A DNA stretch of 64,000 nt, taken from positions 1,054,001 to 1,118,000 of the forward strand of contig NW_026570230.1 in assembly GCF_019649055.1 (NCBI RefSeq), given 5' to 3'. The translations under genes and the position numbers were made by a program. Source of the stretch: Paramacrobiotus metropolitanus (Eukaryota; Tardigrada; Eutardigrada; Parachela; Macrobiotidae). Under the pieces are notes generated by a model. That model saw nothing but the letters and a program-made list of their open reading frames with translations. It was not told where the DNA came from and made no database searches. Positions 1 to 21,790 of this stretch are shown here, in pieces; positions within the stretch are counted from its first letter, which is position 1, and each line of letters opens with the position of its first letter.

Positions 1-1737
1 GCTTATCCTATCCGTGATGATTTCGTCGATGTTCCCCTTCTTGTCCATGTACATCACGTTATATACACGGGCAATTTGGACCAACGTTGATCCACGGGGA
101 TTCCTACTGTATCCGATGCACCGTGCAATTCTAGTCGGTGTATCGTCCGCATTCCTGGCGGCTGCACTTTTAAGTGCTTTGATGAGGTCCGGTGGAAGCA
201 GTTCGGCCGTCCGTCCCCATTGTCGGTGAACGGCTACTGCTAATCCGAAATCCAAAGTCCAGGCGACGATCTGCATCATGAGTTGATGCGTCAACCATTT
301 TCCGGTTTCGCCTCCGACTTGGATGTTATTGGACAGGTCTCGGACCAAGGACTGGTAAATGTCCACGCCGTTTTTCCTGGCGTTTTCGATGCTCCTTACA
401 ACTTCGACGTGTACTCGGACGGTACGGATTAATGTATCGACCGGGTCATCCGGCTGTTCGTCCGGAAGGCGCTCGCGCTCGTCATCTGGGGCTGGCCACT
501 GTGATTCGTCCGTGTCCGCTCCATGGTCGAACATTTCCTTCAGGTCGCCTTTAAATCCTTCGTAAGGGTCACCTTCTCCGTGGTCGGAGATTGAGTCCTT
601 TTCCTCGATGTCCGAGATCTGATCGGATTCCACATCGGATTGTTGCTTGGATGTGGAGGGCTGGGGTTGTTCGACCGGAGTCGGCGGTTTTGGTGGGTTC
701 CGTAGCCGACCTCCTGAAGTCTTAGCCGGCTTTGTGCCGGTCCGCTCCATGACTTCTTTGAATTTTCGCTCAACCGCATCCTTGTCGTGCGGTTGTTGAG
801 CTTTCTCCTTTTGCTCGGTCCTTTGTGGGCCGGCATCCGAAATATCCAAGTCATCGGATGACTTGTGCCGCTTGGCCGGATTAGGCTTCGGCGTCTTTAC
901 CGTAGAGTCCGACTTCGGTTTGGTCGTCTCTTTGGCCTCCGACTTTACTGGTTTCTTCTGAGTTTCCGTCGGTTGCGGCTTAGCGGGTTGTTTCGCTGCT
1001 TCCTTCTTGGCCTTCCGATTATCCTTGTGGGATTTCGCGGAATTGGCCGAGTTGATGACCCGTGTGTCCAGATCATCGTTGATCTGGACGGAAGGTTGTC
1101 TGGTTGGAGGAGGGACTTTCATCTTGACGGATTGCTGTGCCGTCTTCTTGGTCGACTTGGGTTCCGAAGCGCTGACCTTGTGTGGAGTCGGCGTAGCCGC
1201 TTGTAGGGCTTTAGGTCGACTCTTTTCCGCTCGGTAATGTTCTCCCATACGTTTCATAACGTCGGCCATCTTCTCGGTAAGCCGGTCGTGGTCACGCCGA
1301 GCTTCTGTGGTGTTTCCGAGTATGCTGGCACGTCGGATTCTCAATGAGTGCCAGAGTTCCCTATCCTCCGGGTATGCCATGTCGATGCAGGCATCCTGTT
1401 CCGACCTTGTCAAGTCCTTCACATGTTGTAAGGCTGGGTCGTCATGGAATTCGCGCGATGAGTCCTGAGGTGGTTTCTCCTTAGCCGTACTCCGTTTGGT
1501 CGGTATGTTTACCGATTCCTTTGCCGACTCGTTCGTTCGAGACTCGTCAATTGTTAGACGTGGGCCGGAGTGTACCGAGGTCGGTTCGTCCCTTTGTGGT
1601 GACGTTTCGACCGTTGTTTCGACTCGCGCTTCCGAAGGGGATGTGTGTCCATCGCGTCTTCGGTTTTCTTCGGTTTCGTCGGGGTATTCCGAGGTGTAAA
1701 CCTGAGTGGTTTTTCCATTGTCGGTTGACTCGGCAGC
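1..1737 (-). CDS. Retroelement accessory ORF 4, partial (no stop in window)
   Basis: A minus-strand frame is open from just after a TAA at 1740-1738 to the first base of the window, at least 579 codons. The first ATG comes about 120 codons in (IDMAYPEDREL region), yet the sequence before it already looks coding. Entry may therefore be by frameshift from the overlapping ORF that ends at 1554. The first part is charged and helical, then a Lys/Pro/Gln-rich stretch follows, then an acidic stretch. The part nearest base 1 looks globular, with the segments WTLDFGLAVAVHRQW and RIARCIGYSRNPRG. I recognise no family. It belongs to the retroelement because strand, base composition and style match its neighbours. 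It is not an envelope gene by sight: no signal peptide or membrane segment is visible in the part seen. Confidence 0.6.
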
Positions 1738-3842
1738 TTAGTCGGCTGGGATGCTGATCGGGTCGGCGAAATTTGTTTTACCGGCGATCTGCCTCGTTTC
1801 GGCGTGGATCCCTTCGGTGGTGTCGCTGCCTTCCGTTGAATGGAGTCATCGGAGTCAACGTCGTCCGCATTCTCCTCATCTTCACTACTATCCGACATTG
1901 TTATCGGAATCTTCTCGGTTACCTCTTCTCCGGGCCGAGGTTGAATCTCCAGTGTGTAGGCGCCCGGGTTGATGCTAGGATTACGGAGACGTTGGATCGT
2001 CTGGATCATGTTAGAGTCCAGCGGGAGTTGTCGTAACTCCTGCTTTCCGCATCTTAGAGTCACCAACCGTCGCAGGACTTTGTCCCTATCCTGGATCGTA
2101 GCATGGATCTTCTGGGCCGTTTGGGTCTGTTGCTCGTCGGTCATGGTCCGATCTCGGATACCTCCTTGAAGTTGTGCTTCGTAAAGTATCCGTTGAAGAT
2201 CCAATGTTTTAGCTTGGCTAACCAACTTCTTGTGGATGCCGGGAGTAAATAAGGCCTTCGCTCCCATCACTTTCCGTGACGGGCTCGGCTTCTCTTCAGC
2301 CGGTGGTAAGGAAGACGGAGTCGCCTTCAGGATTTCCAAGAGTCGTTCCTTGGTCCTGACTGGTGATGGCGACTTTGACGGGAAGAGACGCCTGCGTGGA
2401 CCGTGCTCTTCAATGTTGTCCGTCAGTTTCGGCTTCCTAGCGAATTTCGGTGAGTTTGATCCGCCAGGTTGGAGAACGAGTCGACCGTCGGGTGTTCGTT
2501 CACTCTGCGGTTCTCTTTGTGAGAGCCCAGGTAACGTTGTAGGTCGTTCCAAAGGTTTAGGTCGGGTTACTTCTGTTGTTCCGACTTCCTCCGAAGTATC
2601 CATCGGTTCATCCTCGCCTTCAAGTCCAGGTACCGGTACTTCGTCCATCGGCTCGTCTTGGTGACTCACCGGTGGAACTACCTGTGTCGGTTTGACAGGT
2701 TGTACCTTAGGCTTCTTAGCGGAGGGCGGCCTCTTCGGCTTACGTTGCACTTCCGCTTCCTTCCGCTTGTAGAAGTCGTCTACGAAGGACTGAATCATGG
2801 CCGTCAGGGTTTGCAGCCGTTCCTGATTCTTTACCGACCACACTGTTGTTGGTCGGAGGATAAATCGGGCTTCCTTGGCGTTGTTCTCCAAGTGTCCGAG
2901 ATTGATATCGATCTGACAGTATTGCGGACTCCGTTGGTCGGTCTCGTCCATCATCTTTCGAAGTTCGACGATGACAGCGTCCGCTCGCAGTAACTGTGTG
3001 TTGACTGCTTTTGCCCATTCAAGGTCGGGTTTGGCTGGTGGGGCTGGAGGTGGAAGTCGGACAGAATCGAAACTCGGTTTCCGAGCCGACTGGATCTTTG
3101 TGATCCGCGACGGTCGACCTTCAGTCATGGCGTTTGTTGCCAAGCTGGTCGATTCCTGTTCTTTGTCCCGTTCCTTCTCTTCCTCGTATTCGTTCACCCT
3201 TGTTTCCAACCATGAGGTCGTTCGGATTAGGTGTTGTCGAGTCCTCATCGTTTGTGGGGCGTCCGGATGACATAGTCGTCGTATAAACCGGGCATTGTTT
3301 CCCCACGCTAGGATATCTCGATCCAAGTCGTTCGCTTCTTGGCTGTTATCTTCACAAAAATTTCTGCGGGCTCTCATCTCTGTGATGAGTTCCGCTACTC
3401 TAGTCAATAGTTTGACTATATGTGGCGCGACCGTGTTCGGCAGTTCATCCGTGTCCGGTATGGCTTCCATGATTCGGGCTTCCGTGGCCGGAGACATGGG
3501 CCGATCGGCCATTTCCATCGGTTTCGGTTGGGCCAAGCCTGCTGTTGAGGTCGGCTGGGATTGAATCCGAGCTGTTGTCGAAGTCGGCTGACTCGAGGTG
3601 TTCGGCTGTTGCGAACCGGGTGCGTGTTGTTCCGCTTTCCGTTGTTCCTCGAGTTCCTTTCGCCGTAAGATTTCGAGGTCGGTTTGCACATCCTGGATGT
3701 GCATCTGGAGACTTAATTTGATCTTCGATTGCCGTCCGGATGTTGCGGATGGTCGGATCTGTTCCGTCCATGTTATCAACTTGGCGTTGCAAGCTATCGG
3801 CAATCCTTTGTGTACGAGCCAACTTGTCGTTAAGGGCTTCAC
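1554..3842 (-). CDS. Retroelement accessory ORF 3, coiled-coil modules and Pro-rich linkers
   Basis: This is a 762-codon minus frame. The only initiator at its far end is GTG, and its first 40 or so codons look non-coding. Convincing protein begins near 3,711 (LQMHIQDVQTDLEIL), exactly where the preceding ORF loses its module pattern, so the two probably form one product joined across a +1 shift. Downstream are two charged helical modules separated by Pro/Thr/Lys linkers. One carries ITEMRARRNF and another has RADAVIVELRKMMDE followed by SPQYCQIDINLGHLE. Further on are an acidic stretch with PMDEVPVPGLEGEDEPMD and a last helical module with RILYEAQLQGGIRDR. The C-terminus is basic. No enzyme motif, signal peptide or membrane segment is visible. 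A structural or nucleic-acid-binding role within the particle would be guesswork. Confidence 0.6.
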   Translation of the reverse strand: MKPLTTSWLVHKGLPIACNAKLITWTEQIRPSATSGRQSKIKLSLQMHIQDVQTDLEILRRKELEEQRKAEQHAPGSQQPNTSSQPTSTTARIQSQPTSTAGLAQPKPMEMADRPMSPATEARIMEAIPDTDELPNTVAPHIVKLLTRVAELITEMRARRNFCEDNSQEANDLDRDILAWGNNARFIRRLCHPDAPQTMRTRQHLIRTTSWLETRVNEYEEEKERDKEQESTSLATNAMTEGRPSRITKIQSARKPSFDSVRLPPPAPPAKPDLEWAKAVNTQLLRADAVIVELRKMMDETDQRSPQYCQIDINLGHLENNAKEARFILRPTTVWSVKNQERLQTLTAMIQSFVDDFYKRKEAEVQRKPKRPPSAKKPKVQPVKPTQVVPPVSHQDEPMDEVPVPGLEGEDEPMDTSEEVGTTEVTRPKPLERPTTLPGLSQREPQSERTPDGRLVLQPGGSNSPKFARKPKLTDNIEEHGPRRRLFPSKSPSPVRTKERLLEILKATPSSLPPAEEKPSPSRKVMGAKALFTPGIHKKLVSQAKTLDLQRILYEAQLQGGIRDRTMTDEQQTQTAQKIHATIQDRDKVLRRLVTLRCGKQELRQLPLDSNMIQTIQRLRNPSINPGAYTLEIQPRPGEEVTEKIPITMSDSSEDEENADDVDSDDSIQRKAATPPKGSTPKRGRSPVKQISPTRSASQPTKLPSQPTMEKPLRFTPRNTPTKPKKTEDAMDTHPLRKRESKQRSKRHHKGTNRPRYTPAHV

Positions 3843-5568
3843 GCTTTTCTGCCAATGTGGGCTCGAGCGGTTGTTGCGAAGCAGTCGGCTGCGGCTGAGT
3901 GGAAGTCGGCTGAACCCTTTGTGGGTTAGCCTCTAAAATTTTCCACAAGTCTTCGACCCGCCTTGAGCAGATGCTATACTGCTGGTCCAAGGCGTCGCGC
4001 ATTTGCTTCTCCATGGCGTTATTCGGGTCGAGTTCCCGGAGTTGTCTTCCGAGCTTCTCCATGACGTCGACCGCTTCTCGGTACTGATTCTCGACTTCAC
4101 CGATGTCGACTGCCTTTGGTTCGGCTGCCTCGGCGAAAGGGAGTTCGACGTCGAGTCCAGGTGATGGGACTGGAGAAGGTGTTTTCCTACGAGCTGGTAC
4201 TGGCGCTCCCGCTTTGTTCGGGTTTGCCAAGTACTGCTTAACATGATCGATCACCGACTGAAGTGCTTCAATTAGCCGGTCCCGGTTCGGACCCGGCGGT
4301 GGAATTCCCCATGAGCCTAGAGTATCGGCCCAATCCAACTCGAGTCGTAGTGCTCGGTCGATCCGGGTGAGGTCGGTTTCCTCTTGTTCCGTTAGGGTTC
4401 CACTAAGTCGGTGGTGAAAGATGTCGGCTAAATCCTGTCCGGCTTGTGAAATTATATCCAAGTTACCGGTCAAGTTTTCCATTGGTGTCGTGCCGACTAG
4501 AGTCATCACCGCTGTCGTAGTCGGTGCTGCTCGGCGAGGTGGCGACGGCGTGGCGATCCGAGTGTACTCGGGTTCCGCGTTGAGGATCTCTGTGATCCGC
4601 TCAACTACCGACCTGAGTTGTCGTTCGTCGACTTCGGTCGGTTCTTCTTTGCGGAGTAAGTCGTCTGCCTTTTTCAAGTAGGCTGTCAAGTCGTTCATCT
4701 TCTGCCGTGCCACTCTCAGAGTTTCGCCGTCCGTTGGCGTATTTTGTACGAACGTTCGCTGGAGGTCTTCCAGTAAGTCCCATCCGTCGGTAATTATGGA
4801 GGACATCTTTTCTCTGCGGCTTTTCCGCATTGCCGAGTGCGTCTCCGCCGCCGATGAGGTCGACGGTAATGCGTCCAAGGTTTCCGTGTCAGAGTCCTGT
4901 GGTCGATGTTGACCCCGTGACTCTGGTCGGCGTTGGCTTCGGCTATATTCCCGCAGTTGGTTTATACCATTCATTACGAATTGGAAATGAACTCCCGGTT
5001 CGACCGTGCCTGGTTGTATCAGGTTCCTCACAAGTTGTATGTGAGTGGCGAACTCGGAAGTTATCCTCTGCACGTTCGGCTCGAGTCCTCTTTCGGCGCG
5101 TTGCTGAATCCGTTTAAGGGTGTCTTCCGCCTCCTGTATAGCGGATCCACCGTAGAGGATTATCCGGTCGGATGATGGAGATTTCGCCGTTACGACCTGT
5201 GTGGTCGTCGGCGGAGGCGATGATATCGGTGAAGTCACGACGGCTCCCGGTATTAACGTCGTCGGTTGGACGTTATCCGTCAGTAAGGACGGAAGTTTCT
5301 CCGCCGAGATAGCCGTCTTCACCTGATCCATAACTGTTCGGAGTCGGTGTTTGTCCACCTCTGTGGTGGGCAAACCGTACCGAGTAAGATCTTCAGTTAG
5401 CCCTATGTGGGCTATGAGATCGTTAATTTTCCGAACTGGATCTAATTCGGTAGGATCCCGGGTTCCGTCAGCTATACGTCCGTAGATCGTCTGAAGAGCT
5501 TCTTTGCCTTCGAGGATGGTTTTCCAGACCTCTGTCGTCTGGTCATCCTGTCCGATCTGAAATGCCAT
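3445..5568 (-). CDS. Retroelement accessory ORF 2, repeated helical modules
   Basis: The frame starts at an ATG (MAFQIGQDDQTTEVW) 99 bp after the stop of the previous ORF and runs 707 codons. At least four related helical modules of about 70-100 residues can be picked out. They begin near WKTILEGKEALQTI, AIQEAEDTLKRIQQ, IITDGWDLLEDLQR and DIISQAGQDLADIF, and two of them end in similar helices (LRTVMDQVKTAI, LRSVVERITEIL). A second module type follows (QLRELDPNNAMEKQMRDAL and QVDNMDGTDPTIRNIRTAI). Linkers carry TTTQVV or TTTAVM peptides. After IEDQIK (about 3,711) the reading loses this character while the overlapping frame picks it up, so the last 90 codons are probably not native. Function unknown. 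Nothing resembles env, an integrase or a protease. Confidence 0.65.
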   Translation of the reverse strand: MAFQIGQDDQTTEVWKTILEGKEALQTIYGRIADGTRDPTELDPVRKINDLIAHIGLTEDLTRYGLPTTEVDKHRLRTVMDQVKTAISAEKLPSLLTDNVQPTTLIPGAVVTSPISSPPPTTTQVVTAKSPSSDRIILYGGSAIQEAEDTLKRIQQRAERGLEPNVQRITSEFATHIQLVRNLIQPGTVEPGVHFQFVMNGINQLREYSRSQRRPESRGQHRPQDSDTETLDALPSTSSAAETHSAMRKSRREKMSSIITDGWDLLEDLQRTFVQNTPTDGETLRVARQKMNDLTAYLKKADDLLRKEEPTEVDERQLRSVVERITEILNAEPEYTRIATPSPPRRAAPTTTAVMTLVGTTPMENLTGNLDIISQAGQDLADIFHHRLSGTLTEQEETDLTRIDRALRLELDWADTLGSWGIPPPGPNRDRLIEALQSVIDHVKQYLANPNKAGAPVPARRKTPSPVPSPGLDVELPFAEAAEPKAVDIGEVENQYREAVDVMEKLGRQLRELDPNNAMEKQMRDALDQQYSICSRRVEDLWKILEANPQRVQPTSTQPQPTASQQPLEPTLAEKREALNDKLARTQRIADSLQRQVDNMDGTDPTIRNIRTAIEDQIKSPDAHPGCANRPRNLTAKGTRGTTESGTTRTRFATAEHLESADFDNSSDSIPADLNSRLGPTETDGNGRSAHVSGHGSPNHGSHTGHG

Positions 5569-5667
5569 CGCATGATACCGGGGCTGGGGAACCTGTTGTT
5601 CGGCTCCTCCTGTTTGGCTCTGGATTATCTGTCTAATCCTCCGGTAATGTATGTTTAGTCGAATGGC

Positions 5668-8022
5668 CTAATCGTCTGTGGTTATGCCGCCGTCCTGCTC
5701 GGCGAGTTTGCGGGCGATCCGTAAACTCCGGTAAAGGTCGTTTACCAACGCTGCTCTGTTGGTTACGGCGATCAAGTCGCCGCCTTGCGTCATCCTCACT
5801 TCATCGAGGATTCGATCTCCCGTTCGGATAGCGGCCTGTACTTCTGCCAATGTGGGCATTTGTACGGCTTCCGACCGACGTTCGGCTGCCTCCAGGTTCT
5901 GGACGAGCTGTGGGTACAGGTTAGCTCGGTTCTGAGCGTTCCGTATCCTGTTCCGGATTGCGTTCAGTAATTCCAGACTTGTCGGCATTCCGGTCGTTAA
6001 GTAAGACTGGAGTCCTGACATGAAGTCGCGGATGGCTTTTCTGTGGCTATTGAGGTTCATTGCCTCGGTAGTTCCTGCCGGTGTATCTTCTAATACTGTA
6101 TCCATCCGACCTGTGACTATTGTAGCCATCCGCAGAAAATCCCGTAGCTCCTGCAGTGTTGGGAGCGGTTCAACGGGTGGCCCTTGTGGGGTCTGCTGTG
6201 TCGGGTTCACTTGTAAGGCCGGAACTTGGATTGGTAATAATCCTTGGCCTACGTTCCACGTCATCATGGGTGGAGGTTGGCTCTTTGGGACGACCGCTGG
6301 TTGGGTCGTCGTCGGCTGTAGGGCTCGGATTTCGTTCTCCTTCTCCGTCAACTTCTTAGTCCAATGCTCGATCAGTCCGGTATTACCCAGAACGGTTTCA
6401 GGGTAGTGTTCCTTAGTTGGGTCGAGCGTAGCCAGGCGCTTCTTCACTTCATTTATTTCGTGAAGATATTCACTGCGCTTTTGCGCTAAAGCGTCCAGCC
6501 GGGCTAGTCGGATTTCTTCATCAATCACCGCCTGTGTGGTCGGTGCTGATATTCCCGACGAGCGCAAGTTTTGTTCTTGTGCTCGTATCCACTTTTCCGA
6601 GTCGGCTGCAATGTCGACTTGTTGGTCTTCCTGTCGGCGTATTCGACGGAATTCGGCCTCGTAATTGTCCGTGTTCCGAGGGAGGCGTGCCCATGACACT
6701 CTTAGCTTTACGGCCTCTTTCATGGCCTCCTCCTTCCGGAGACGTAGTTTTCCGATCTCCAGTGAGGTTGTTCGGCCAGGCGTTTGTCGGCCTGCCGAAG
6801 TCGACGGAATTGGTTGAGACGTCGGCGTGACAACCTGTGTGGTTATCGCCGGGGGCCCTGGGTCAGGGTCTCCCAGTCTCTGGCCAACATGCCGAGCTAC
6901 CGCTTGTTGGCAGATTCGGAGGGTTTCCTTTTCTTCGGCATGAAGCTTCAAGGTGGCGTCGTTCAGACGGTTCTCGTAGTACGACAGTTCAGCCAACAAC
7001 TTCGTTCTGTATGGAGTGTGGCTCGGATCCATCTGTGAGGTCTGCGTAAGTGCTTGGCTGATCGTGTCTATGTGAGCACGAGCCAGTTTTGCCTGTTGAC
7101 GCAATTCCTCTTCCGTCCTGCCGTTAGTGTTGATTTCTTGGACGACCGCAAAAGGTGGAGGCATCGACGTTACGACCTGTGTGGTCATCGTCGAAACAGG
7201 CCCTTGTTGGCTCTGTCCTCCGACCTGACTTCTGTGTTGGTTCAGCCGGTTCATTAGATGGGTCGTCGCGTTTGGATCCATCCAGAGGTTCTGTTGTCCG
7301 GGTGGCCTAAGATGGGTCGGCGAGATCGGTGGCGTAAGCAATACTGGCCTTGGTGGCGAGATTGTGCCATCCGGGCTGACCATGCTGATCGTTGCGATTT
7401 GTGGGGGTGGCATTCCCGACGTTGGCGGGATTGATGCGAATCGCATTGCCGGTGGGCTGTATGGGAAACTACTCGGCGCCAATGTGGGCGTCGTGTAGAT
7501 CGGACCCGCTGTGTTAGCCATTCCTGGCGCCATTGTGGGCACCATGTAAATCGTTACGGGCGTGTTCGCCATCCCTGGCACCATTGTCGGTGTCGGGTAA
7601 GCTGCTCCGGTCATCATTGTTGATGCCGAGCTGGTCGGTCCGACTATTGTAGTCGGTACCGGCCACTGATAAGGTGGCATTTGGCCATGTGGGCCTGCTA
7701 CCGTTGTCGGAGTCGTCTGACTCGTTCCAGTTCCGAGGTTCCACAGACAGCCTGTGTTATCGACTGCTGTGTTCGGTGGCAAAATTTGCGGCGGTATCGC
7801 TCCACGTTGGGGCCCGACCGTAAGACCTGCTAACACATTAGCTGTTACGTTAGCTTGAGGATTGTCTACCTGCGGTAATGGCGTCTGTGTGGCCGACCGC
7901 GAATTATCCGATCGCGATGTCGAGCGATGGGTCGGGTAGGGCTGTGATCGGTTCGATCCGTTACCGCTACGTCCGCTGTTCGATCCGCTGGAAGGTGGGT
8001 CGTGTCGGCGACGACCTGACAT
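5668..8022 (-). CDS. Retroelement accessory ORF 1, Pro-rich head and helical modules
   Basis: This ORF is intact, 784 codons, starting at an ATG 176 bp after the pol stop. Residues 1-40 are Arg/Ser-rich. Residues about 110-290 are very rich in Pro, Thr and Met with short imperfect repeats (APGMANT occurs twice and VPGMANT once). From about 290 on, the protein is helical and charged. Three modules share a pattern of a helix, an Asp-Pro or Asn-Thr turn with a following Tyr, a second helix, then a TTQ-type linker. They are centred on MDPSHTPYRTKLLAEL, NTDNYEAEFRRIRRQ and LDPTKEHYPETVLGN, with linkers ITTQVVTP, PTTQAVID and TTTQPAVV. Two more helical modules end the protein. No transmembrane segment, signal peptide or zinc motif is visible. 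It may be expressed by reinitiation or from a spliced subgenomic RNA. Confidence 0.7.
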   Translation of the reverse strand: MSGRRRHDPPSSGSNSGRSGNGSNRSQPYPTHRSTSRSDNSRSATQTPLPQVDNPQANVTANVLAGLTVGPQRGAIPPQILPPNTAVDNTGCLWNLGTGTSQTTPTTVAGPHGQMPPYQWPVPTTIVGPTSSASTMMTGAAYPTPTMVPGMANTPVTIYMVPTMAPGMANTAGPIYTTPTLAPSSFPYSPPAMRFASIPPTSGMPPPQIATISMVSPDGTISPPRPVLLTPPISPTHLRPPGQQNLWMDPNATTHLMNRLNQHRSQVGGQSQQGPVSTMTTQVVTSMPPPFAVVQEINTNGRTEEELRQQAKLARAHIDTISQALTQTSQMDPSHTPYRTKLLAELSYYENRLNDATLKLHAEEKETLRICQQAVARHVGQRLGDPDPGPPAITTQVVTPTSQPIPSTSAGRQTPGRTTSLEIGKLRLRKEEAMKEAVKLRVSWARLPRNTDNYEAEFRRIRRQEDQQVDIAADSEKWIRAQEQNLRSSGISAPTTQAVIDEEIRLARLDALAQKRSEYLHEINEVKKRLATLDPTKEHYPETVLGNTGLIEHWTKKLTEKENEIRALQPTTTQPAVVPKSQPPPMMTWNVGQGLLPIQVPALQVNPTQQTPQGPPVEPLPTLQELRDFLRMATIVTGRMDTVLEDTPAGTTEAMNLNSHRKAIRDFMSGLQSYLTTGMPTSLELLNAIRNRIRNAQNRANLYPQLVQNLEAAERRSEAVQMPTLAEVQAAIRTGDRILDEVRMTQGGDLIAVTNRAALVNDLYRSLRIARKLAEQDGGITTDD

Positions 8023-8198
8023 TGTTGCTTGCTGTCAAGGAGAGGAAATACGGCGCGTTAGAATTCTACCAACTCCCGTACATTCAACTGAAGATGTTCC
8101 GGTCAACTGAAGAGATTCCATTTCGACACCAAAGGTCCATCTATACCTAGCTACTGTTAAGCTATCTAAAACTTATTCTAAGTTTTACGGCTATGGCC

Positions 8199-11100: not shown

Positions 11101-14100
11101 TTGGCCAGTCCGAGGAACGACCTAAGTTGCCGTTCAGTTCTCGGGCAGCTTTGTTCTGCAATACAGGCCACTTTCTCGTCATCGGTCTGGACTCCATCTT
11201 TGCTAAGGACGTGTCCAAGGAACAGCAGTCTGTCCGTTCCGATCTCACATTTGGAGGGTTTGACCGTAAATCCAGCATCGCGGAGGCATTCGAGAGTCGC
11301 TCGGAAAGCCTCTAGGAAGTCTTCGAACGTTTTGCCGAAGAAGATGATATCGTCGATGTAGGCGAATACACCTTTCTTCCGAGCCGATGCCGTAATTTTA
11401 TCCATATGCATTTGGAAAGTTGCTGGTCCGTTGCAGACTCCAAACGGCATACGGTTAAATCGCCACATGCCTTCGGGTGTTACGAAGGTCGTGTAGTCTT
11501 TGGATTGTTCGTCCATAGGAATTTGCCAAAAGCCGGACTGACAGTCTACCTTGCCGTAGTATTCCATTCCGGCACATCGGTCCAATAGCTCGTCCGGGTT
11601 CGGTAGTGGGTAGTTGTTTTTCTTCGTAACGGCATTCAACTTGATATAGTTGATGCAGAAGCGTGTTCCTACCGTGCCGTCTCCGTTCCGTTTCGCGGCT
11701 AAGACGACGGGGAAGCTCCATGCAGCCGATGACGGTTCGATGACTCCTTGGTCGAGCATCTCCTGCACGTGTTTCTGGATGAATTCGCGTCCCTTCCAGC
11801 TTGTCCTGGTGGGGTTCATCTTAATCGGCTGTGCACCTTGGACATCAATGGTATGTGTTACCCCTTTGACGTCTCCGTAAGGTTTCTTCGAGGTCGGAAA
11901 TACAGTCCGGTAATCCCATGCAACTGCCTTTAGTTTAGCTAGTTGCTCATCGGTTAAGTTTTTACCGAAGTTCATGGAGTCGATGATTCTCCGTCGCTCC
12001 TCCTGGGATTCGGCGTCTTCCTTTTCTACCTCTGCCGTGTTGACTCGTGCCTCTTCGACCTTCTGGTCGTCCGTCATCATTGTACATGCTTCGGCTCGAC
12101 CCATCGGTGCACCTTTGCGTAAGGTGACTTCCCGATGAGTATGGTTTGCCACCATGACGGTGAATCGTTTCCCGTCGTGCTTGGTTACGCCGTCCATGAA
12201 TTCGACTCCGTCTCGTTTGGGGTCGGATTCACCTAGGTACATCAGTCTCTGGTCCGTGGATACCGGTACGTCCAGGACGACTTCTACCATCGTTACGGCT
12301 CGAGGGATGAGTTTGACCTTCCGTTGGGCCCGAACTCCTGTTGCCTCGAAAACTTCGAACTGGGGTTTTGGCTTTATTTCCCGAGTAGGGGGCCATGTCT
12401 TCGCCACTTTGTGTGGGAGTTCCCATTCGACGAATTCATTATTGATTTCCGGTTCATAGACATCGGCATATTGCATATGGCCAAGTCGTGCGCCTTTTTT
12501 CAACACCTTCGTTTGGTGAGTCGTATTCTGGATGTTTATCCATGCCGTGTCGACTTGAGGTCGGATATCGATCTTGGCTTCGATTGGCCGAATAGGTCGG
12601 ACTACCCGTTGTAGGGTAGAGAAGTAAATTCGTCTTCTCGGATCCATTGGTTTGGCCGTCCGTACCTTGATCGAACATGTTGACCATGGTGGGAGAGAGA
12701 CTCGGTCGCTGTTAAAGACAACTTGTCGGTCTAACGCTTTCGTCTCTACGTAAGGATCCAGCTTCAAGTGGTGGACTTCTGGGCATTTGTTGTCCAGGTC
12801 CAGCTCGTCAATCGTCTTGACTTTGGCGACTCGTGCCTTCCATGTGTTGAAATGCTCCGACTTCTGTTGGTCGGTCAAGTTAGCCAAGGTCGGTTGTTCG
12901 GTTGACAACTGCTGAATGACGATTGTTGGAGGTCGGAAATCGTCTTGTTCCGGTTTACCTCCTCCGAATTCCCACAAAGCCTTAAGTTGGTCGAGTTCCT
13001 CCTGTTGTTCGGAGCCGACCGGCTTGGGCTGTTCGGTTTGTTCCGGTTGCTGGTCTATGAATTCTGTGTGAACTATAGACCGCAATGCTGTAGTTAGCCG
13101 GACATCGTAGGTCGGTTCTTCGTCGTCCGATGGCGAATCGTCCGAGTCGCTTATGCTCGGTTTATCCGTCCTACAGTGCCGGACTGACAGATCGAGTTCT
13201 TCGTCGTCATCTTCCTCGGATTCTTCCGAAGGTCGGTTATCGGAGTCCGTGTCCGCCGAATCGCTCGTACTTTGTATGTCCGAGTCGTCTGACTGATAAT
13301 CTTCGAATTCGACTTCCGATCCGTTTTCGGGGTCGACTTCTGGCATGTCTTCGAATCCGACCTTTGTGGTCGGTTCGAGTTGGTCGACTTTATCCGTCGG
13401 TTGGGTAGGTCGACTTGCTCCGTCCTGATTCTCAAGGTCGGCTGGCTGTAAGCCTATGTTGCTCAGCCATCGGGTGCTCGTCTGTTGGGGCTTCCGAAAG
13501 CGATCTACCTTCCGTTCCTGTTGCGGAGGCGACGGCGACGACGGTCTGTCGTCCGACCAAGTTAGGTCGTGATGAGCTTTTATTGCTCGTACTACCTCGT
13601 CAATATTGTCTTGACAGATAGCACACCGATAAGGTTGATCGGTTTCCTCCAGGACTACGTTTCCTTGAGGCTTCGCCGGGCTACTCGCAAACTTCACGTC
13701 GGTTGGAGTGTGCGGCATAAGAGGTGGTAACGGTTTAGGAACTTGCCGCGTTATGGCGGTGTCCTCGCCGTACCGTCGCCAAAATGCAGTCGTTGACGAT
13801 TCTCCGTGCAACCTTATTCGCTGCATATGGGCGAAAAGTTGAGAGCCTAGTTCCTGGCACGGCATTTCGAGCGGGGGTGGTATAGGAAGTCCGTACTCCA
13901 TGTACTGTCGATGGATCGGAATTCGCTCGTCTTCCCATTCCCATGCTTCGTCCTCTATGTCGTTCATGAGGGCGATTACCGGTTCACACGTTTGTTGTGC
14001 GTCCAGTATCTGGTCGGGGGTTACCGCTCCGTTCTGTTGCAGAGTGGTCACTATCTCCGACGTCCGTTGGTCGAGAAAGTGTCGAACTCCCGAGAACCAA

Positions 14101-15782: not shown

Positions 15783-16390
15783 CGACCTTGGGCGTTTCCC
15801 GGGGAATTACTCCGAGCTGGCCCGTTGTTGGGCGACGCCAAGCCGAAAGGATGGTGTGGCGGTAACTGTTGCCGCCGTTCCGGAGATCCTTGTTGACCTC
15901 CACCGCTATTCCTGCGGTTGCCACCCGACCCATTTCCTGGGCCGGTTTGCCGGTTTCCGTTACCGGCGCCGCCCGAGCCTCCACCTTGTTGGCGTTGGCG
16001 CGGGGGCGGCACGACCAGTGCGTAGTTCGCTGGCCGATCCCAGTGGTCCTCCCGTCTGGTATCGCGTATGCCAATCCTCGAACCAACGGCGATTCGGGTT
16101 GTCCTGTACCCGAGTACCGATGAACGCACATCGTGCTTGGTCGTGATTGCTGAACTTGCAGAAGTTGCAAGTAAAGCTGTCCGCTAGCGACCATTGGAGG
16201 AACAGTTGTTCCATCCGATCCACATAGGTCGTATATTGCCGAGCACTTTGTTGTGCTTGGGGAGGTCGGTTCCCTTGTTGGTTGCCGCCTCCGCCGCGGT
16301 TAGGAAAGTTGCCGCGGCCGCGTTTTCCGCCGCCACGTCCTTTTCCGCGACCGAAACCTCCGCCGCCGTATCCCTGTGTGGGAGGTGGGC
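15779..16390 (-). pseudogene. gag: Gag nucleocapsid part, zinc knuckle, broken over frames
   Basis: In one frame (from about 16,390 down to about 16,090) a Gly/Arg-rich stretch (GYGGGGFGRGKGRGGG) leads into a zinc knuckle CNFCKFSNHDQARC, a perfect C-x2-C-x4-H-x4-C. The sequence then runs to about FEDWHTRYQT. After that the plausible reading moves to another frame with VVPPPRQRQQ and Gly/Asn-rich sequence, ending in TGA at 15,781-15,779. That TGA overlaps the pol ATG at 15,782-15,780. A zinc knuckle after the capsid domain is normal for Gag nucleocapsid. The frame changes indicate small indels in this copy, or errors in the sequence, because the Pol that follows is open for 7.6 kb. I describe the breaks and do not attempt to join the frames. 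Confidence 0.7.
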
Positions 16391-17133
16391 ATCCTGATTT
16401 CCAGGGCTTCCCGTAGTTTGGGTTCGTGGACGTTCTCCTTGAGATGGTACATTATTATTTGATCGGTAATCGTGGGGACTTGGGACTTCATGAACATCAT
16501 TGCGTCGTAGTACTGTTCCGGCGTTTCTTCGCCGAAGCGAAATATCCGTTTATTAATTCGGGATATCATGTTCACTTCCTTGTTCTTGTCCGCAAATCGC
16601 TGCTCGAATTTGGTCAGCCATACGTTGACTGGCCATCCGCCGAGTGGTTCTCCGGCGGCTTCGAGGGTATGCCACTCTTCCGCTTGGCCCTCTAGTCGGG
16701 CTACCAAGTCGGACATGAAAGTCTGATCGTCTTCGTACCACTGTTGGGCTTGACGATACAGGCTTCGGATCTGTTTAAGCCACCCATGAAGTTTGGTGTG
16801 GTCTCCGTCGAACGGCGGTAAGGGTTGCCGACGTCCGTGGATATCGCTCGTACCAAAGCAATATGTGCCGGGTCCTGTGCCGGAGGAATTAGGTGTGCCA
16901 CCGGCGCAGCTTGTTGTGCAGCCGGGGCGGGTGGAGGGTTGGCATATGGTACGTGACCTTGTTGGTCTTCGTATGCCCCTGTTGATAGGCTTCTTCGTCG
17001 TAGCCGTCGTATCCGTCCTGTTGCGGATACCGAGCCTGGGCCTGGTCTTCGTGACGAGGCCGTTGTGGCTGTCCTCCATACTGTTGTGGAGGGGGCGCTC
17101 GATTTTGTCTCGGCGCCTGCGGATAGAATCCAC
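16300..17133 (-). pseudogene. gag: Gag capsid part in a shifted frame
   Basis: The middle of this frame (about 16,830-16,430) encodes a recognisable retrotransposon Gag capsid domain. It shows PPFDGDHTKLHGWLKQI, then EGQAEEWH, WLTKFEQRFADK and EETPEQYYDAMM, the usual helical capsid pattern with W and F landmarks. The first part of this frame (17,133 to about 16,840) does not look coding. There the third frame reads a plausible Pro/Ala/Gln-rich linker (YANPPPAPAAQQAAPV) that joins the upstream Gag. At the end, the frame leaves the coding track near 16,390. Capsid therefore sits between two apparent one-base shifts. Its position between the coiled-coil Gag and the zinc knuckle is as expected for a single ancestral gag. 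Confidence 0.75.
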
Positions 17134-20032
17134 TCGGTTGGTCGTAGACTCTTCCGTACCGGTTGGGCTGTGTTCCCTGAGCCGGTATCCGACCTTGTAT
17201 TAGTCGGTGTAGGGGCACCCGACCTTGTTGGTCGGAGCTATCCTCTCCGTTCTGTCCGTCCTGCCGCTGGTCGGTCGTGTTGAATGACCGAGCCCTCGCT
17301 CGTTCAAAGTCGAACGGCGGGTTCTGGCGGAGGAAGTTCGGATTGGAGTTCGTCCTTGGTGGGCGATATACTTGTATGCCCGGTCTCAGTGGCGGGACTG
17401 GGAGACGTTCGGCGTCTGTTGCTTGGTCTCCTCTCACGTTAGGTACCGGCGCGTACGTTGTTGTCCGCGTCGCGTACGAGGTGCTGGTATATGCACCGGC
17501 AGACGTCGTTGTCGCCACGTTCGACGTTGGCACTCGCGGTGCCGCGGTCGACGTATTGTGTTCCGGTTCCGGAGCAGCCGGAACTGTTGGTGGTTGTGGG
17601 ATTGTTCCCACGCTTGGGTCGGTCGTTACGACTCCGACGAAGTAGGAGGTGTTGTTCTCCTTCTCCGCCATTTGCTGGGTTGGGTTGATTCCCCACAGGA
17701 TGTCACTGATTGTTCGTGACGGCTGTTGATCCTGTGCCATGGACGTCCGGTATGAGGGAGGTTCAACCCGGCTGTGTTCCCGGTATGAAGGTAGTTCGAC
17801 CTGGCTTTGTTCCAGGTGCCTCTTCTCTTCCCTCAGACACCGTGTTTCCGTGTCCATCTCGTCCATTTGCCGCATCATCTCCGTTAGATTGCGGGCGGCT
17901 TGTTCGCCAAAGTCGTATAGTTCGACTTCGCGGGCTTCCAGGTAAACGATGCGGCCGTGTTGCGCCTCGTTTACCTTTCGAGCCTCGTTCAGGCTGTACT
18001 CCAGTTGAGCTCGGAGTTTCTGTTCCTCCTTGAGGGCTTGGTTCAGTCCATGAACCTGGTCGGCTAGCTGAGCGTTTGCTTCCACCAGGTCGACATCGGC
18101 TGTCCTTTGGTTAGGAAAGCCCATGTCTCGAGCGTTCGCGTCGATGAATCGACGTCCCGTTCTGACGAAGAGGAGTTCCATCTCCGACTCGAGTTCGTCG
18201 GTTCGTTGTGTTAGTCGGTCGATCTCGTTATCGGCCTTCTTCAACTCCACCGCATACCTATCGACTTCGTGTCGATAGACTTCGGCCTCTTCGTTGGCCT
18301 GGTTGAGTTGCTGGTGGAACGCTCCTGCTGCCTGTTCCGACTCGACCAGTGCGGTCTGGACATCGGCCAGGTCTTTTTGTGCTTCTTCGAGCGCTTTGTG
18401 CGCCTCGTCAAGCTCCTTTTTGATTTCGAAGACGGCTGCGGTTGAGCGTTCCAACATGCCAGTAAGTATGGCGATTTGGTCGTCTTCGTATCGACACGGT
18501 AAGTCAGCTCGCTTTAATATGGCGTTGAGCCGGTCGATTTCCCGTTGTTGGGTGGCGATGCCCTTGTTAGCATCGGCCATGTCTCGTTCCCATTTCCTCC
18601 GTTCGATCTTATGGGTGTCCTCCGAGTTTCGGAGGGATCCTTCTGCCGAGTCGACGATTTTGTCCGCCAAAACGATCTGTGTGATCAGTTTATGGCATCT
18701 CGCTCGGAGTAGGTCGAGATCGTTAATCTTCTCGGGCGGTGTTGCCGCGATCCACTTCTTGGCCGTGTATTCGAGTGCACTGGCCTGGTATCCGAGATTC
18801 TCCTTATCGGACTTGGGTGGTGTGGTGAAAAATCCATCCGCACTATTCGGTCTTGACGCGTTTGTTGCCTCAAAGACTTCGTTTGTCGGTGATGGAGTAC
18901 TACCAAGTTCGCCGGTTCCGAACATTGGTGGTGACGATCTCAATGTCTGGTCGACAGGTCGACTTTGTGTCGCCTTAGTCGACTTCACCGTTTGTTGAGC
19001 TTCGGTTGCTCGAGTCGACTCGCTTCCAGTTGGCGAAGGTCGGCTCAACGGCGAAATTATCCGTTCGTTGGGTGCCGGCATGTTGGTCGGCGATCCGGCT
19101 GGGTGAGGGCCGCTTCGTGGCGGTACCTCGGAATCTGTCGTTCCTGCCGGTGATTTAGTCGACTGGACGGTCGCATCCGACTTTGTGTCGGCTGGTTGCC
19201 GTTCCAGGCTAGTCGGTTGCTTATTGCCGACTTCCTTTTCTCCGACCTCGGTGGTCGGCGTCTGTTGACCGACCTTCGAGACTGGCGAAATCCTTCCGAC
19301 CTGTGTGGTCGGTCGGACGTTGCCGACTTCTGTTGTCGGTTTCTCCATTCCGTTCGAGGTCGGCTGTCCGGCCTCTTTCGTTAGTGGTAGGTCGACCTTC
19401 GGTTGGTCGACTTCCTTTGCTGAGGGCTGGCCGACCATTTGTTGGTCGGCTTCCTTAGTCGGTGATTGTGTACCGACTTCTTTGGTCGGAGATTTTCGCT
19501 CGACCTGTGTGGTCGGCGATTTCCGTCCGACTTGGTTAGTCGGTATGTCCGTGTTGGACGAGGTTGGCTTCGGCACTTCTTCCGTCCTGTTGGGTGATTG
19601 CCGTCCAAGCTCGGTGGCTTTTGTAGCCGTTACCGAGTCTGGAGCTCCGTGTGAGCTCGACTGTTGGTCGGCATGAGACAATGTGGTCTCTGCCTGCAGC
19701 TGTTCCACATCCCCCCCGGTCGGGTGGGACGGGGCTGCTACGTCAGCTGGGGCTTCCAGGAATGTTTTATCCCTGGCGTCCTCGAAACTATCATCCGAAG
19801 TTGGATTCGAGTCAGCGAGGAGAATCCGTTCGTTGCGTCTCTCCTTCGCTTCGGCCGACTTAGTCGAGTCGGTTGAGGACGGCTGACTTTTGTCCTGACC
19901 GGCGTACCGGAGTGAGTACTTTCCGGTCATGTTCGCACGCCGAGAATAGTCGGTGTTGAACTTTCTCGCGTATTCGTTTTCTCGAGGATTCGACATTGTT
20001 GTCGAATCAGGTCGGCTCTGGTGGAGCCTCAA
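16889..20032 (-). CDS. gag: Gag N-terminal coiled-coil protein, unusually long
   Basis: A 1,047-codon ORF opens the element. Residues 1-400 are low-complexity, rich in Pro, Ser, Thr, Lys and Gln, with many short tandem units of the type SPTKEVG, PTTQVG and PTTEVG (about 165-270). Residues about 440-740 form a long heptad-rich coiled coil (for example KELDEAHKALEEAQ). Two proline-Tyr motifs follow (LPSY and PPSY, about 750-765). PPxY is a known ESCRT/Nedd4 recruitment motif in retroviral Gag, so a budding-like role is conceivable here but is inference. The last 250 residues are Pro/Gln/Tyr-rich. The final 20 or so codons before the stop at 16,889 are out of character, which marks the first shift towards the capsid frame. 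ATGs at 20,032 and 36 bases later could both serve as start. Confidence 0.75.
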   Translation of the reverse strand: MRLHQSRPDSTTMSNPRENEYARKFNTDYSRRANMTGKYSLRYAGQDKSQPSSTDSTKSAEAKERRNERILLADSNPTSDDSFEDARDKTFLEAPADVAAPSHPTGGDVEQLQAETTLSHADQQSSSHGAPDSVTATKATELGRQSPNRTEEVPKPTSSNTDIPTNQVGRKSPTTQVERKSPTKEVGTQSPTKEADQQMVGQPSAKEVDQPKVDLPLTKEAGQPTSNGMEKPTTEVGNVRPTTQVGRISPVSKVGQQTPTTEVGEKEVGNKQPTSLERQPADTKSDATVQSTKSPAGTTDSEVPPRSGPHPAGSPTNMPAPNERIISPLSRPSPTGSESTRATEAQQTVKSTKATQSRPVDQTLRSSPPMFGTGELGSTPSPTNEVFEATNASRPNSADGFFTTPPKSDKENLGYQASALEYTAKKWIAATPPEKINDLDLLRARCHKLITQIVLADKIVDSAEGSLRNSEDTHKIERRKWERDMADANKGIATQQREIDRLNAILKRADLPCRYEDDQIAILTGMLERSTAAVFEIKKELDEAHKALEEAQKDLADVQTALVESEQAAGAFHQQLNQANEEAEVYRHEVDRYAVELKKADNEIDRLTQRTDELESEMELLFVRTGRRFIDANARDMGFPNQRTADVDLVEANAQLADQVHGLNQALKEEQKLRAQLEYSLNEARKVNEAQHGRIVYLEAREVELYDFGEQAARNLTEMMRQMDEMDTETRCLREEKRHLEQSQVELPSYREHSRVEPPSYRTSMAQDQQPSRTISDILWGINPTQQMAEKENNTSYFVGVVTTDPSVGTIPQPPTVPAAPEPEHNTSTAAPRVPTSNVATTTSAGAYTSTSYATRTTTYAPVPNVRGDQATDAERLPVPPLRPGIQVYRPPRTNSNPNFLRQNPPFDFERARARSFNTTDQRQDGQNGEDSSDQQGRVPLHRLIQGRIPAQGTQPNRYGRVYDQPSGFYPQAPRQNRAPPPQQYGGQPQRPRHEDQAQARYPQQDGYDGYDEEAYQQGHTKTNKVTYHMPTLHPPRLHNKLRRWHT

Positions 20033-21790
20033 AGGTTTTATTAGTTAAAGAAGAGAAAATCGAACAATCCTCTGTGTGAGGATGTTCGATGAAATCGGGA
20101 ACGTCTTTTGGTTCAGGAACTTCCGAGGGTCAGGAACGTCCGGTGAGATGTTGTTGTTGTTGTTGTTGTGTCTGTTGGTGACTCAGTACACAGGGTTAAT
20201 ATGCAGTACTATGGTACGGTACAGTACGTTATAGTAGTACGGTGTAGTACGTCCTATACTACTGTGCTGACCAGTGTGACGTAACAGGTTAAGTGGTCTT
20301 GCACTTCTGCATACGTCACAGAATGCGAGCCGCGTGCAAAATTTACAAAAAACGATGAATCACGCCTATGTTAGGCTATGGGAACTTTCCCCTGCACTCT
20401 GATTGGCTGCCTCTTAAGTACTGATAAGCGGTCGTTATGACGTCACAAGGAAGTTCGAGAATTTTCGCGCTATTTCCCGCGAGAAAAACAAATTATTTTT
20501 GCTCGGCTAGAAAGTTTATCTAGTCGGATTTTTGAGTTTTTAACCGTTAGGAATTAGTTTTATTAATTAAGGAAATTTTCTGGTGGTCGAAACACCGTTA
20601 GAAATCAAAAACAAGAGAGTTTCCGACCTGTTGCCGGTTAGCCTTTGTCTAACTGTCTAGACAGGTTCGTTGACCTAGCAGGTCGGTTCTCGACCAAAAG
20701 CAAAATTCCGAGTCGGTTTCTCCGTCAGAAATTACTTTTTAACCGTTAAAAAGTTAAATTTTACGGATAGAATTCGTTTTCTACCGTTAGAAAGTGAAAA
20801 GCCGACCTAGTTGCGGCTAAGATCGACATAGAACCGTTACTTTACCGGTGTCGGTGTCGGTGTCGGTTCCGCTCGATTTCCTCCGTCCGAGGTCGGAAAT
20901 CCGTCGTTTCCGAGTAAAAATCCGCCGTTAAAGTTGCGGGTCGGTGTTCAAACCGATGGTCCCCGTATTATTGGAGTAATCCGTTCGCGCTGCAGACTCT
21001 CGTTCGAGTCTGATCCGTCAGTTGGGAGAATTCCGTGCTGTTGGGAATGTGCTCTTCAATGTGGAAGAGACAGAGAAACTGTGCTCACCAGCTGGGTGAG
21101 AATCACTTCAGTGATCCTCGTTTTCCTCAGCTGTAAGACGATGCGATCAGTCCGATCGACAGTCAATGCAGAGATTGCTTCAGCAATCTGTCTGACAGTG
21201 ACTGAAAAGGTTCCTCACGAGTTCTCCGTAATTGAAGCCTTCACCGTCTCCTCAAAGGTTCCGTAGGAAGGAAAACCAGAAAAGATGCTGCTACCATGTA
21301 ACAGACAAGCACGAGGAGATCACGAGTGATGCTTTATTGTACAAATAAAGGGGGAACAATGCTGCGTAATAGCAGGAAAGCAAGAACAAATGGCTAAATC
21401 AACAAATGGCAATGGAACAAATGGCAAATAGCAGTGATGGCTAAATCTAGCAAGTGTGTGCTAAAGTCGGTTCTTGAGCGTCTTCAAGGCGTGTAAAGAA
21501 GCAACTGGCGGCAAGCACGTGCTGTGTGCCATCAGCTGTGTGATGATGCGCAGACTGGACTCTATCCAACGCGAGCGTATGAACGCTGAGTCATACTGCG
21601 AAAGAGGAACGAGAGAGCAAGTGTGGCTCAGTGTATGCGCTGCGTATATCCGCTTCAGCGGATGAGTGCAGTGCAGCAGCACACGTACGTACAGTGAGAG
21701 AGGTGGTAACGGCAAGCAATGGTGCAAGTACGTCCTGTGTGGACCGTACGCACCAGGCGCAGTCGTACGCCTCTGACAAATAATAATACA
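20033..21790 (-). other. Leader and candidate 5' LTR zone of the Ty3 element
   Basis: No ORF of note lies here. Read on the minus strand this zone precedes gag, so it must hold the 5' LTR and leader. Features seen are a GTT/TGT microsatellite at about 20,151-20,171, repeated units of the type CCGTTAGAAA or CCGTTAAAA between about 20,540 and 20,930, a GTCGGT triple at about 20,851, AATAAA-type signals on both strands near 21,333-21,350, and several perfect hairpins between 20,993 and 21,663. I could not find a convincing primer-binding site or TG...CA ends, and without the second LTR the exact limits stay open. The outer edge is bounded by the host exon starting at 21,838. Confidence 0.5.
20059..20090. 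repeat. 13-bp hairpin in the gag leader, loop TGTGT
   Basis: The plus strand reads ATCGAAC, a single A, ATCCTC, TGTGT, GAGGAT, GTTCGAT. Both stem blocks (7 and 6 bp) pair perfectly and only one A is bulged. It lies 27 bases upstream of the gag ATG on the minus strand, so in the element RNA it forms a strong stem-loop directly before the start codon. It carries the same TNTGT loop as the hairpins scattered through the element and is the longest member of that family. A translation or packaging signal is possible but unproven. Confidence 0.8.

Follow-up and report, generated by a model that had tools for sequence, protein, structure and literature searches.

Hairpins with family-specific loops are dispersed along giant Ty3/gypsy retroelements of the tardigrade Paramacrobiotus metropolitanus

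A giant Ty3/gypsy retroelement of the tardigrade Paramacrobiotus metropolitanus carries about 30 short hairpins that share the loop ACANA in the sense of the element RNA and have stems of unrelated sequence, and some related element families in the same genome carry hairpins with other loops. The element lies on the minus strand of a 64,000-nucleotide (nt) stretch of contig NW_026570230.1 (positions 1,054,001 to 1,118,000; this whole stretch is the window hereafter), extends beyond the window start, and was analysed in the RNA sense over window positions 1-20200. From the sequence pattern, we think it probable that the hairpins are dispersed recognition sites, read through their loops, for an RNA-binding protein that the element encodes, most likely Gag, which would mark the genomic RNA for packaging.

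The pattern is visible by eye in the raw sequence. The original prediction had claimed at least 20 perfect hairpins with a TNTGT loop (ACANA in the element RNA) and unrelated stems; in 1587-20090, 29 of the 146 TNTGT occurrences are flanked by perfect stems of 4 bp or more, among them all six hairpins that it had quoted. In the remainder of the window (20091-64000) the count is 2 of 253, and with the loop on the opposite strand (ACANA on the plus strand) 0 of the 11 occurrences in 1587-20090 have a stem. Over positions 1-20200, perfect stems of at least 4 bp flank 30 of 154 ACANA loops, with 17 of at least 5 bp and 8 of at least 6 bp, compared with means of 0.58, 0.15, and 0.04 (maxima 4, 2, and 1) in 300 dinucleotide shuffles. 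The coding pieces contain 28, 16, and 7 hairpins at the same thresholds; 1000 synonymous-codon shuffles gave means of 1.46, 0.72, and 0.26 and maxima of 6, 4, and 2, so that the codon-preserving comparison that had been proposed as a check returned a large excess. Stem lengths, put at 4-8 bp in the prediction, run from 4 bp (the threshold used) to 9 bp, the 9-bp stem lying beyond the window.

The excess depends on the loop letters. When 5-nt loop patterns with at most two N were scanned across the window element, ACANA ranked first (binomial p 3.3e-43), and the loop ACAN[CG] has 1 hairpin in 295 occurrences vs 30 in 154 for ACANA. Flank positions 1-5 around ACANA pair in 42-55% of cases; at the first flanking positions of sibling loops differing at one position, pairing is 15-38%, mostly 20-30%. 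The hairpins are spaced 44-2020 nt apart (median 453). They are listed below with plus-strand letters, the element RNA being the minus strand.

726..740, minus strand, CCGGC-TTTGT-GCCGG
2512..2524, minus strand, TCTC-TTTGT-GAGA
3092..3106, minus strand, GGATC-TTTGT-GATCC
3373..3389, minus strand, CTCATC-TCTGT-GATGAG
3754..3766, minus strand, CGGA-TCTGT-TCCG
3913..3927, minus strand, AACCC-TTTGT-GGGTT
4584..4598, minus strand, GGATC-TCTGT-GATCC
5192..5208, minus strand, ACGACC-TGTGT-GGTCGT
5355..5369, minus strand, CCACC-TCTGT-GGTGG
5398..5414, minus strand, TAGCCC-TATGT-GGGCTA
5524..5542, minus strand, hairpin with a mismatched closing pair and 6 bp outside the mismatch (outside the 30 counted)
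6832..6844, minus strand, AACC-TGTGT-GGTT
7174..7186, minus strand, GACC-TGTGT-GGTC
8534..8548, minus strand, CGACC-TCTGT-GGTCG
10050..10062, minus strand, CAAC-TTTGT-GTTG
11850..11862, minus strand, GGTA-TGTGT-TACC
12404..12416, minus strand, CCAC-TTTGT-GTGG
13357..13373, minus strand, CCGACC-TTTGT-GGTCGG
14853..14865, minus strand, ACCT-TGTGT-AGGT
15356..15372, minus strand, CGTCAC-TTTGT-GTGACG
15563..15577, minus strand, CCTCC-TTTGT-GGAGG
16371..16383, minus strand, TCCC-TGTGT-GGGA
18391..18403, minus strand, GCGC-TTTGT-GCGC
18674..18686, minus strand, GATC-TGTGT-GATC
18960..18972, minus strand, CGAC-TTTGT-GTCG
19177..19191, minus strand, CCGAC-TTTGT-GTCGG
19296..19312, minus strand, CCGACC-TGTGT-GGTCGG
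19430..19450, minus strand, GCCGACCA-TTTGT-TGGTCGGC
19501..19515, minus strand, CGACC-TGTGT-GGTCG
19616..19628, minus strand, GGCT-TTTGT-AGCC
20067..20083, minus strand, ATCCTC-TGTGT-GAGGAT, in the untranslated leader
21732..21744, minus strand, GTCC-TGTGT-GGAC, within the long terminal repeat (LTR) and recurring in the 3' LTR (outside the 30 counted)

This one genome holds more than 100 pol copies of the element's lineage: a 357-residue piece of pol has at least 131 matches at 57-100% identity, with some copies matching twice. Hairpins were examined in 14 copies, assigned to families A (that of the window element) to E, with two copies in C, two in D, and one in E. Six further A copies, fetched as halves of 5.8-10 kb, each have 6-17 hairpins with stems of 4 bp or more, except the 5' half of copy L019, which has three; antisense hairpins are absent. 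ACANA is retained in family B (87-88% in the pol piece). Family C (84% in the pol piece) has lost the innermost pair, giving a heptaloop variant that A and B also show, though less often: of the family C hairpins with the next four pairs formed, 42 of 46 have C..A or A..A around the loop, whereas C..G flanks it in 16 of 26 such hairpins of the window element, 54 of 131 of the close A copies, and 22 of 37 of family B. Family D matches the pol piece at 81-83% over its first part and at 58-59% over the remainder; a scan of its copy L032 gives the loop CAANA, with 17 of 65 occurrences in stems of at least 5 bp (p 1e-36). Family E (69%) has an NANC tetraloop, with 48 hairpins, of which 37 read YANC and 35 are closed by C-G.

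When hairpins of at least 4 bp are counted per loop occurrence and pooled over the copies used, the cross-table of family by loop is close to block-diagonal, although not perfectly clean. Its control column is one 10-kb region of an unrelated gypsy element (L031); a further control comprises eight reverse transcriptase (RT) loci of ~3.5 kb (L001-L008), retrieved by RT similarity and unsorted by family.

ACANA: A 80/488, B 27/301, C 3/263, D 1/53, E 2/95, other gypsy 1/41
[AC]AC[AG]NAA: A 13/148, B 13/123, C 56/171, D 0/22, E 0/25, other gypsy 0/25
CAAYA: A 6/351, B 2/220, C 1/195, D 40/120, E 2/48, other gypsy 0/31
NAAC: A 13/2030, B 7/1479, C 8/1286, D 4/796, E 19/525, other gypsy 1/181

The loop scan found no enriched loop in the 10 kb of L031, and the eight RT loci hold 1 ACANA hairpin in 175 loops. 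The T content of the element RNA is 0.15-0.17 in families A, C, D, and E (window, L013, L025, L027, L029, L030) and 0.24 in L031. Low T may limit other folding of the RNA and thereby make the hairpins conspicuous.

Fixed stems can also be followed through the genome as a whole. CCGACC-N5-GGTCGG occurs at 419 sites, compared with 18 for the backward control, with ACANA in one orientation in 23 of the 50 sites listed, and GGATC-N5-GATCC occurs at 382 sites vs 21. GGAGCC-N5-GGCTCC has 14 sites, below its control's 25, and 7 of the 14 have a CAAYA loop. Such sites are largely copies of each other and hence not independent.

Placement relative to coding sequence separates the array from the proteins it overlaps. 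The hairpins of the window occur in all three frames, mostly in frame 0, and sites span the leader, the gag, pol, and ORF3 regions (ORF, open reading frame), the LTR and, in family D, non-ORF sequence toward the 3' end. In the 3' half of D, which is T-poor like the element until about 9 kb, 18 of 20 sites are not covered by any sense ORF of at least 150 amino acids (aa). The same half contains one short tandem array and 12 diverged direct-repeat families, several of which contain the hairpin itself. The earlier view that protein repeats alone do not account for the hairpins holds, since synonymous shuffles remove them and most 3' sites of D lie outside such ORFs; the shuffles and these D sites also rule out that chance, composition, or protein repeats could by themselves have produced the array.

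In local contexts of 155 nt, using RNA energies for both strands, the hairpins are predicted to fold, as dispersed packaging signals require. Mean pairing probability is predicted to exceed 0.5 for 30 of 30 hairpins in the window element (mean 0.94), for 30 of 30 in D (mean 0.96), for 87% of 30 in C (mean 0.87), and for 84% of 37 in E (mean 0.84). The predicted mean for other-loop hairpins of the window element is 0.45, rising to 0.61 once they are matched for stem length and GC content, and matched controls for D reach 0.68 vs 0.96; matching succeeded for 28 of the 30 window hairpins and 29 of the 30 in D.

Copies were compared site by site. The 5' alignment comprises ten copies (L019 was left out) and was read over its first 30 multi-copy clusters; a second comparison covered clusters present in at least four copies, with L010 and L016 left out. 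Compensatory changes are found at 15563-15577 in L021 and L023 (family B) and L025 (family C), at 14853-14865 in L015 and L017, at 5524-5542 in L014, and among copies at 6832-6844. At 4584-4598 the closing C-G has become A..A in L022 and L024 by synonymous changes on both arms that keep the peptide RITEIL, and a further change in these copies extends the stem outwards. At the column of 19296-19312, a hairpin of at least 3 pairs is present in 10 of 10 copies of the 5' alignment, with the closing pair lost in family C. In pooled counts over the window, L013/L014, L017/L018, and L021/L022, Watson-Crick pairing is restored by 41 of 65 double changes, compared with 102 of 235 where the hairpin has another loop (p=0.007, the comparisons not being independent). 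The original claim that stems co-vary is thus upheld in part: compensatory changes occur at several sites and among the double changes, and related copies often lose single sites, with the extensive turnover described below.

The element itself had been taken to be 20 kb long; it is ~28.8 kb, starting at 21778, with a 3' LTR beyond the window. Its place in Ty3/gypsy follows from the pol domain order, protease, RT, RNase H, integrase (residues 361-451, 1381-1533, 1599-1725, and 1926-2097), from the two TG...CA LTRs with a primer binding site, and from the Gag zinc knuckle. Its parts are as follows.

21297..21778, minus strand, 5' LTR, 482 bp, TG...CA
G000:C10:1046955-1047398, beyond the window, 3' LTR
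21284..21296, minus strand, primer binding site-like TGGTAGCAGCATC, immediately following the LTR
20033..21296, minus strand, 5' untranslated leader with one hairpin
16889..20032, minus strand, ORF1 N-terminal part, P/T-rich, with coiled-coil matches under the Pfam cut-off
16300..17133, minus strand, capsid-like piece of gag, with a DUF4939 match under the cut-off; frame broken in the window copy
16128..16169, minus strand, Gag zinc knuckle C-X2-C-X4-H-X4-C (CNFCKFSNHDQARC), preceded by an RG-rich stretch
8199..15782, minus strand, pol ORF2, 2527 aa, with aspartic protease, RT, RNase H, and integrase zinc and core domains
5668..8022, minus strand, ORF3 piece 1, part of one giant ORF in relatives
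3445..5568, minus strand, ORF3 piece 2
1554..3842, minus strand, ORF3 piece 3
1..1422, minus strand, ORF3 piece 4, continuing beyond the window

The primer binding site-like sequence presumably resembles initiator Met tRNA. The two LTRs show 0 mismatches in aligned columns, with 39 gap positions, and the insertion is therefore probably young; TATTATT, a candidate target site duplication, flanks the element on both sides, in sequence of low complexity. The LTRs are without mismatch although ORF1 and ORF3 of the window copy are broken, and these frame breaks may be assembly indels or may mark a copy dependent on others. ORF1 and gag are fused as one ORF of 1565 aa in copy L009, and ORF3, split into four pieces in the window copy, is a giant ORF in relatives (at least 2545 aa in L022, 2366-10000). 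By eye, this post-pol ORF consists of helical segments strung on T/P-rich linkers, and some hairpins fall in the linkers. The window pieces of ORF3 have no Pfam match reaching the cut-off, and a protein search with one piece gave no homologue among the 8000 candidates scored. A protein search with the Gag region gave one protein out of 8000 candidates, from the same species; the Gag zinc-knuckle domain has 26 invariant columns over eight copies of families A-E. Elsewhere in the window lie a second element with an RVT_1 reverse transcriptase domain (44965-48627, plus strand), a CABIT-domain ORF (53346-54395, minus strand), and a U6 spliceosomal RNA gene (55376-55479, plus strand), the only Rfam match at gathering threshold in the whole window.

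We infer from the sites, their excess, and their family-specific loops a mechanism in which a short stem of ~4-6 bp, of any sequence and often closed by C-G, would display ACANA in the genomic RNA. Many copies of an element-encoded protein, most likely Gag, would bind these hairpins along the RNA; the capsid-like part, the RG-rich stretch, and the zinc-knuckle domain are candidate parts of such a reader. Binding would coat, condense, and select the ~28-kb RNA for the element's own particles, and packaging or condensation with self-recognition seems the most economical purpose for an array of this kind. Because families within one host differ in their loops, readers encoded by the elements would be the best explanation. 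The loop would then act as an address barring one family's protein from another's RNA, A and B having one address and C a variant of it. Whether this amounts to a loop-coded address system, with families' own loops and own co-evolving proteins allowing coexistence in one cell without mixing of genomes, is a question on which we are evenly divided. The earlier suggestions of element-protein binding sites and packaging signals gain from the family-specific loops, the non-ORF sites of D, and the predicted folding, which are consistent with both.

Several results weigh against recognition by an element-encoded protein, or limit it. ACANA shows the strongest excess, though not the sole one: among 5-nt-loop hairpins of at least 5 bp there are 48 vs 15 expected for all such loops, 16 of which are ACANA (N=A, C, or G), and the 32 others are themselves in about twofold excess. 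Loops of 4, 7, and 9 nt are also in excess (32, 38, and 34 vs 17, 13, and 13 expected). Part of the 7-nt excess is ACANA with a mismatched closing pair, and the other-loop excess as a whole is accounted for only in part by such pairs. Individual sites are unstable: 120 of 198 comparisons show the site retained (other-loop hairpins, 390 of 844), and between pairs of families A, B, and C from 2/11 to 6/8 sites are kept in the 5' half and from 0/4 to 3/6 in the 3' half. As sites come and go, it would be the number of hairpins and their loop that are maintained, not each site, as is expected for a redundant array. Some of the 3' sites of D may be duplicates of each other, given that hairpins lie inside its diverged direct repeats. 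The motif of family E, seen in one copy, is weaker (48 of 1820 vs 6.3 expected), and A and B not only share one loop but both also bear the heptaloop form of C, at 9-11%. Moreover, in its zinc knuckle the window copy is closer to family C than to its subfamily relative L013, though the window copy and L013 both have ACANA. This suggests recombination between families in that segment, and gives no support to the idea that the zinc knuckle alone sets the loop type. Finally, substitutions do not settle which strand folds: in-stem G:U vs A:C stands at 10:10 (controls 41:82, p=0.21), with G:U not clearly favoured; single changes comprise 30 G:U and 61 A:C of 122 (controls 212 and 338 of 863); and a count made without control gives 19:17.

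An element-encoded reader could alternatively act at another step, such as nuclear export of the giant RNA, its localisation, control of translation, or protection from silencing by the host. The sequence does not say which step is served, and the sites reach from the leader through gag, pol, and ORF3 to the LTR and the non-ORF 3' part of D. However, ~30 sites across the whole RNA suit coating and packaging better than a point function, and a host export or translation machine would not need family-specific loops. We regard a function at one of these steps as possible but rather unlikely.

The folding strand could instead be the minus-strand complementary DNA (cDNA), with the loop TNTGT, serving RT, integrase, or nucleocapsid as reverse transcription proceeds. 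This would fit the substitution tests, which give no clear favour to the RNA sense. Against it, family A is predicted to fold better in sense than in antisense (0.94 vs 0.82, p=0.003), although family D shows no significant difference (p=0.37) and both strands were assessed with RNA energies. A role in the cDNA seems improbable to us. Recognition by a host RNA-binding protein that marks element RNA, in defence or by hijack, would explain why hairpins with one loop are common to all A copies fetched; D and E, in the same host, carry other loops and hardly any ACANA hairpins, and the rest of the window has only the two stems among 253 loops mentioned above. We consider a host reader slightly less probable still.

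Snap-back synthesis, or another mutational copying of one arm through a short loop, had been offered as a source of the hairpins and would suit perfect arms of unrelated sequence and the roughly twofold excess of other-loop hairpins. It is unsupported here, since arm copying should be indifferent to loop letters and no family-wide switch of loop would be expected from it: stems depend on the loop letters (30/154 vs 1/295 for the sibling loops), these letters switch by family at dozens of sites, and the array hairpins are freer of competing folds than matched hairpins, which makes such an origin very doubtful. An origin as a side effect of composition or of repeated peptides (PTTQV, PTTEV), to which the 19 of 30 window sites read in frame 0 only, many with Thr peptides and some in the repeated ORF1 region, might point, deserves no more credence and is refuted as sole cause by the synonymous shuffles, which preserve the protein and lose the hairpins (1.46 vs 28), by the sites in other frames, and by the D sites outside ORFs.

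Packaging by an element-encoded reader would have precedents among viruses. Dispersed packaging signals of RNA viruses are described as variations on a shared motif, hepatitis B virus is a reverse-transcribing virus, and the packaging sequences of retroviruses lie at the 5' end, an arrangement (psi, a 5'-confined signal) that the array does not follow. The element does conform to the pattern of satellite tobacco necrosis virus (STNV) and MS2, with many stem-loops, one shared loop motif, variable stems, and spread over the whole element. The statement that no system of this kind had been described was too strong, as dispersed packaging signals with shared loops are on record for STNV, MS2, and hepatitis B virus (PMC3593212, PMC6281560, PMC7612645). 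STNV has ~30 stem-loops with AXXA in loops of 4, 5, or 6 bases, and its assembly is indifferent to stem sequence (PMC3593212). The likeness thus extends to the number of short dispersed stem-loops, the A-rich shared loop motif, and the free stem sequence; unlike the 1239-nt genome of that satellite virus, the tardigrade array spreads a similar number of sites over a ~28.8-kb animal LTR retroelement, involves several families with different loops in one host, and is known from sequence and predicted folding, whereas loop-dependent assembly of STNV has been measured (PMC3593212).

The packaging-signal model has been reviewed, including speculation on Gag-like proteins (PMC6281560). Like the element, MS2 has many genome-wide stem-loops sharing features recognised by its coat protein (PMC6281560, PMC4751978), but the MS2 motif has an A in a 5' bulge and the element is without a consistent bulge: of 28 family A stems with exactly four perfect pairs, 2 continue past a 5' bulge and 4 past a 3' bulge. 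Hepatitis B virus has dispersed packaging signals with RGAG loops (PMC7612645), and resembles the element in these multiple stem-loops with a shared loop motif; the motif differs, the virus is not a retrotransposon, and it offers no multi-family loop set in one host. In Ty1 and retroviruses, structured RNA likewise lets Gag select the genomic RNA (PMC5454406, PMC8096270), but the Ty1 packaging sequences are at the 5' end (PMC5454406), while array sites span the whole element. The planarian Burro elements are also gypsy-like LTR elements, of >30 kb, in a report whose accessible part mentions no hairpin array and names a packaging limit for giant elements (PMC6431247). Narrow word searches, judged from titles and abstract openings and with bioRxiv and most subscription papers outside their coverage, found no report of dispersed loop-motif arrays in LTR retrotransposons and nothing of the kind for tardigrade elements.

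If the loop-coded address system is borne out, no earlier retrotransposon would be known to have an RNA address system that is both dispersed and specific to the family, and such a system may be what permits packaging of 28-kb RNAs. The natural changes of loop among related families would allow the joint evolution of an RNA-binding protein and its dozens of dispersed sites to be followed, as in an experiment made by nature. The array would thereby bear on how retroelements discriminate their own RNA and on how elements of ~30 kb overcome the limits of packaging.

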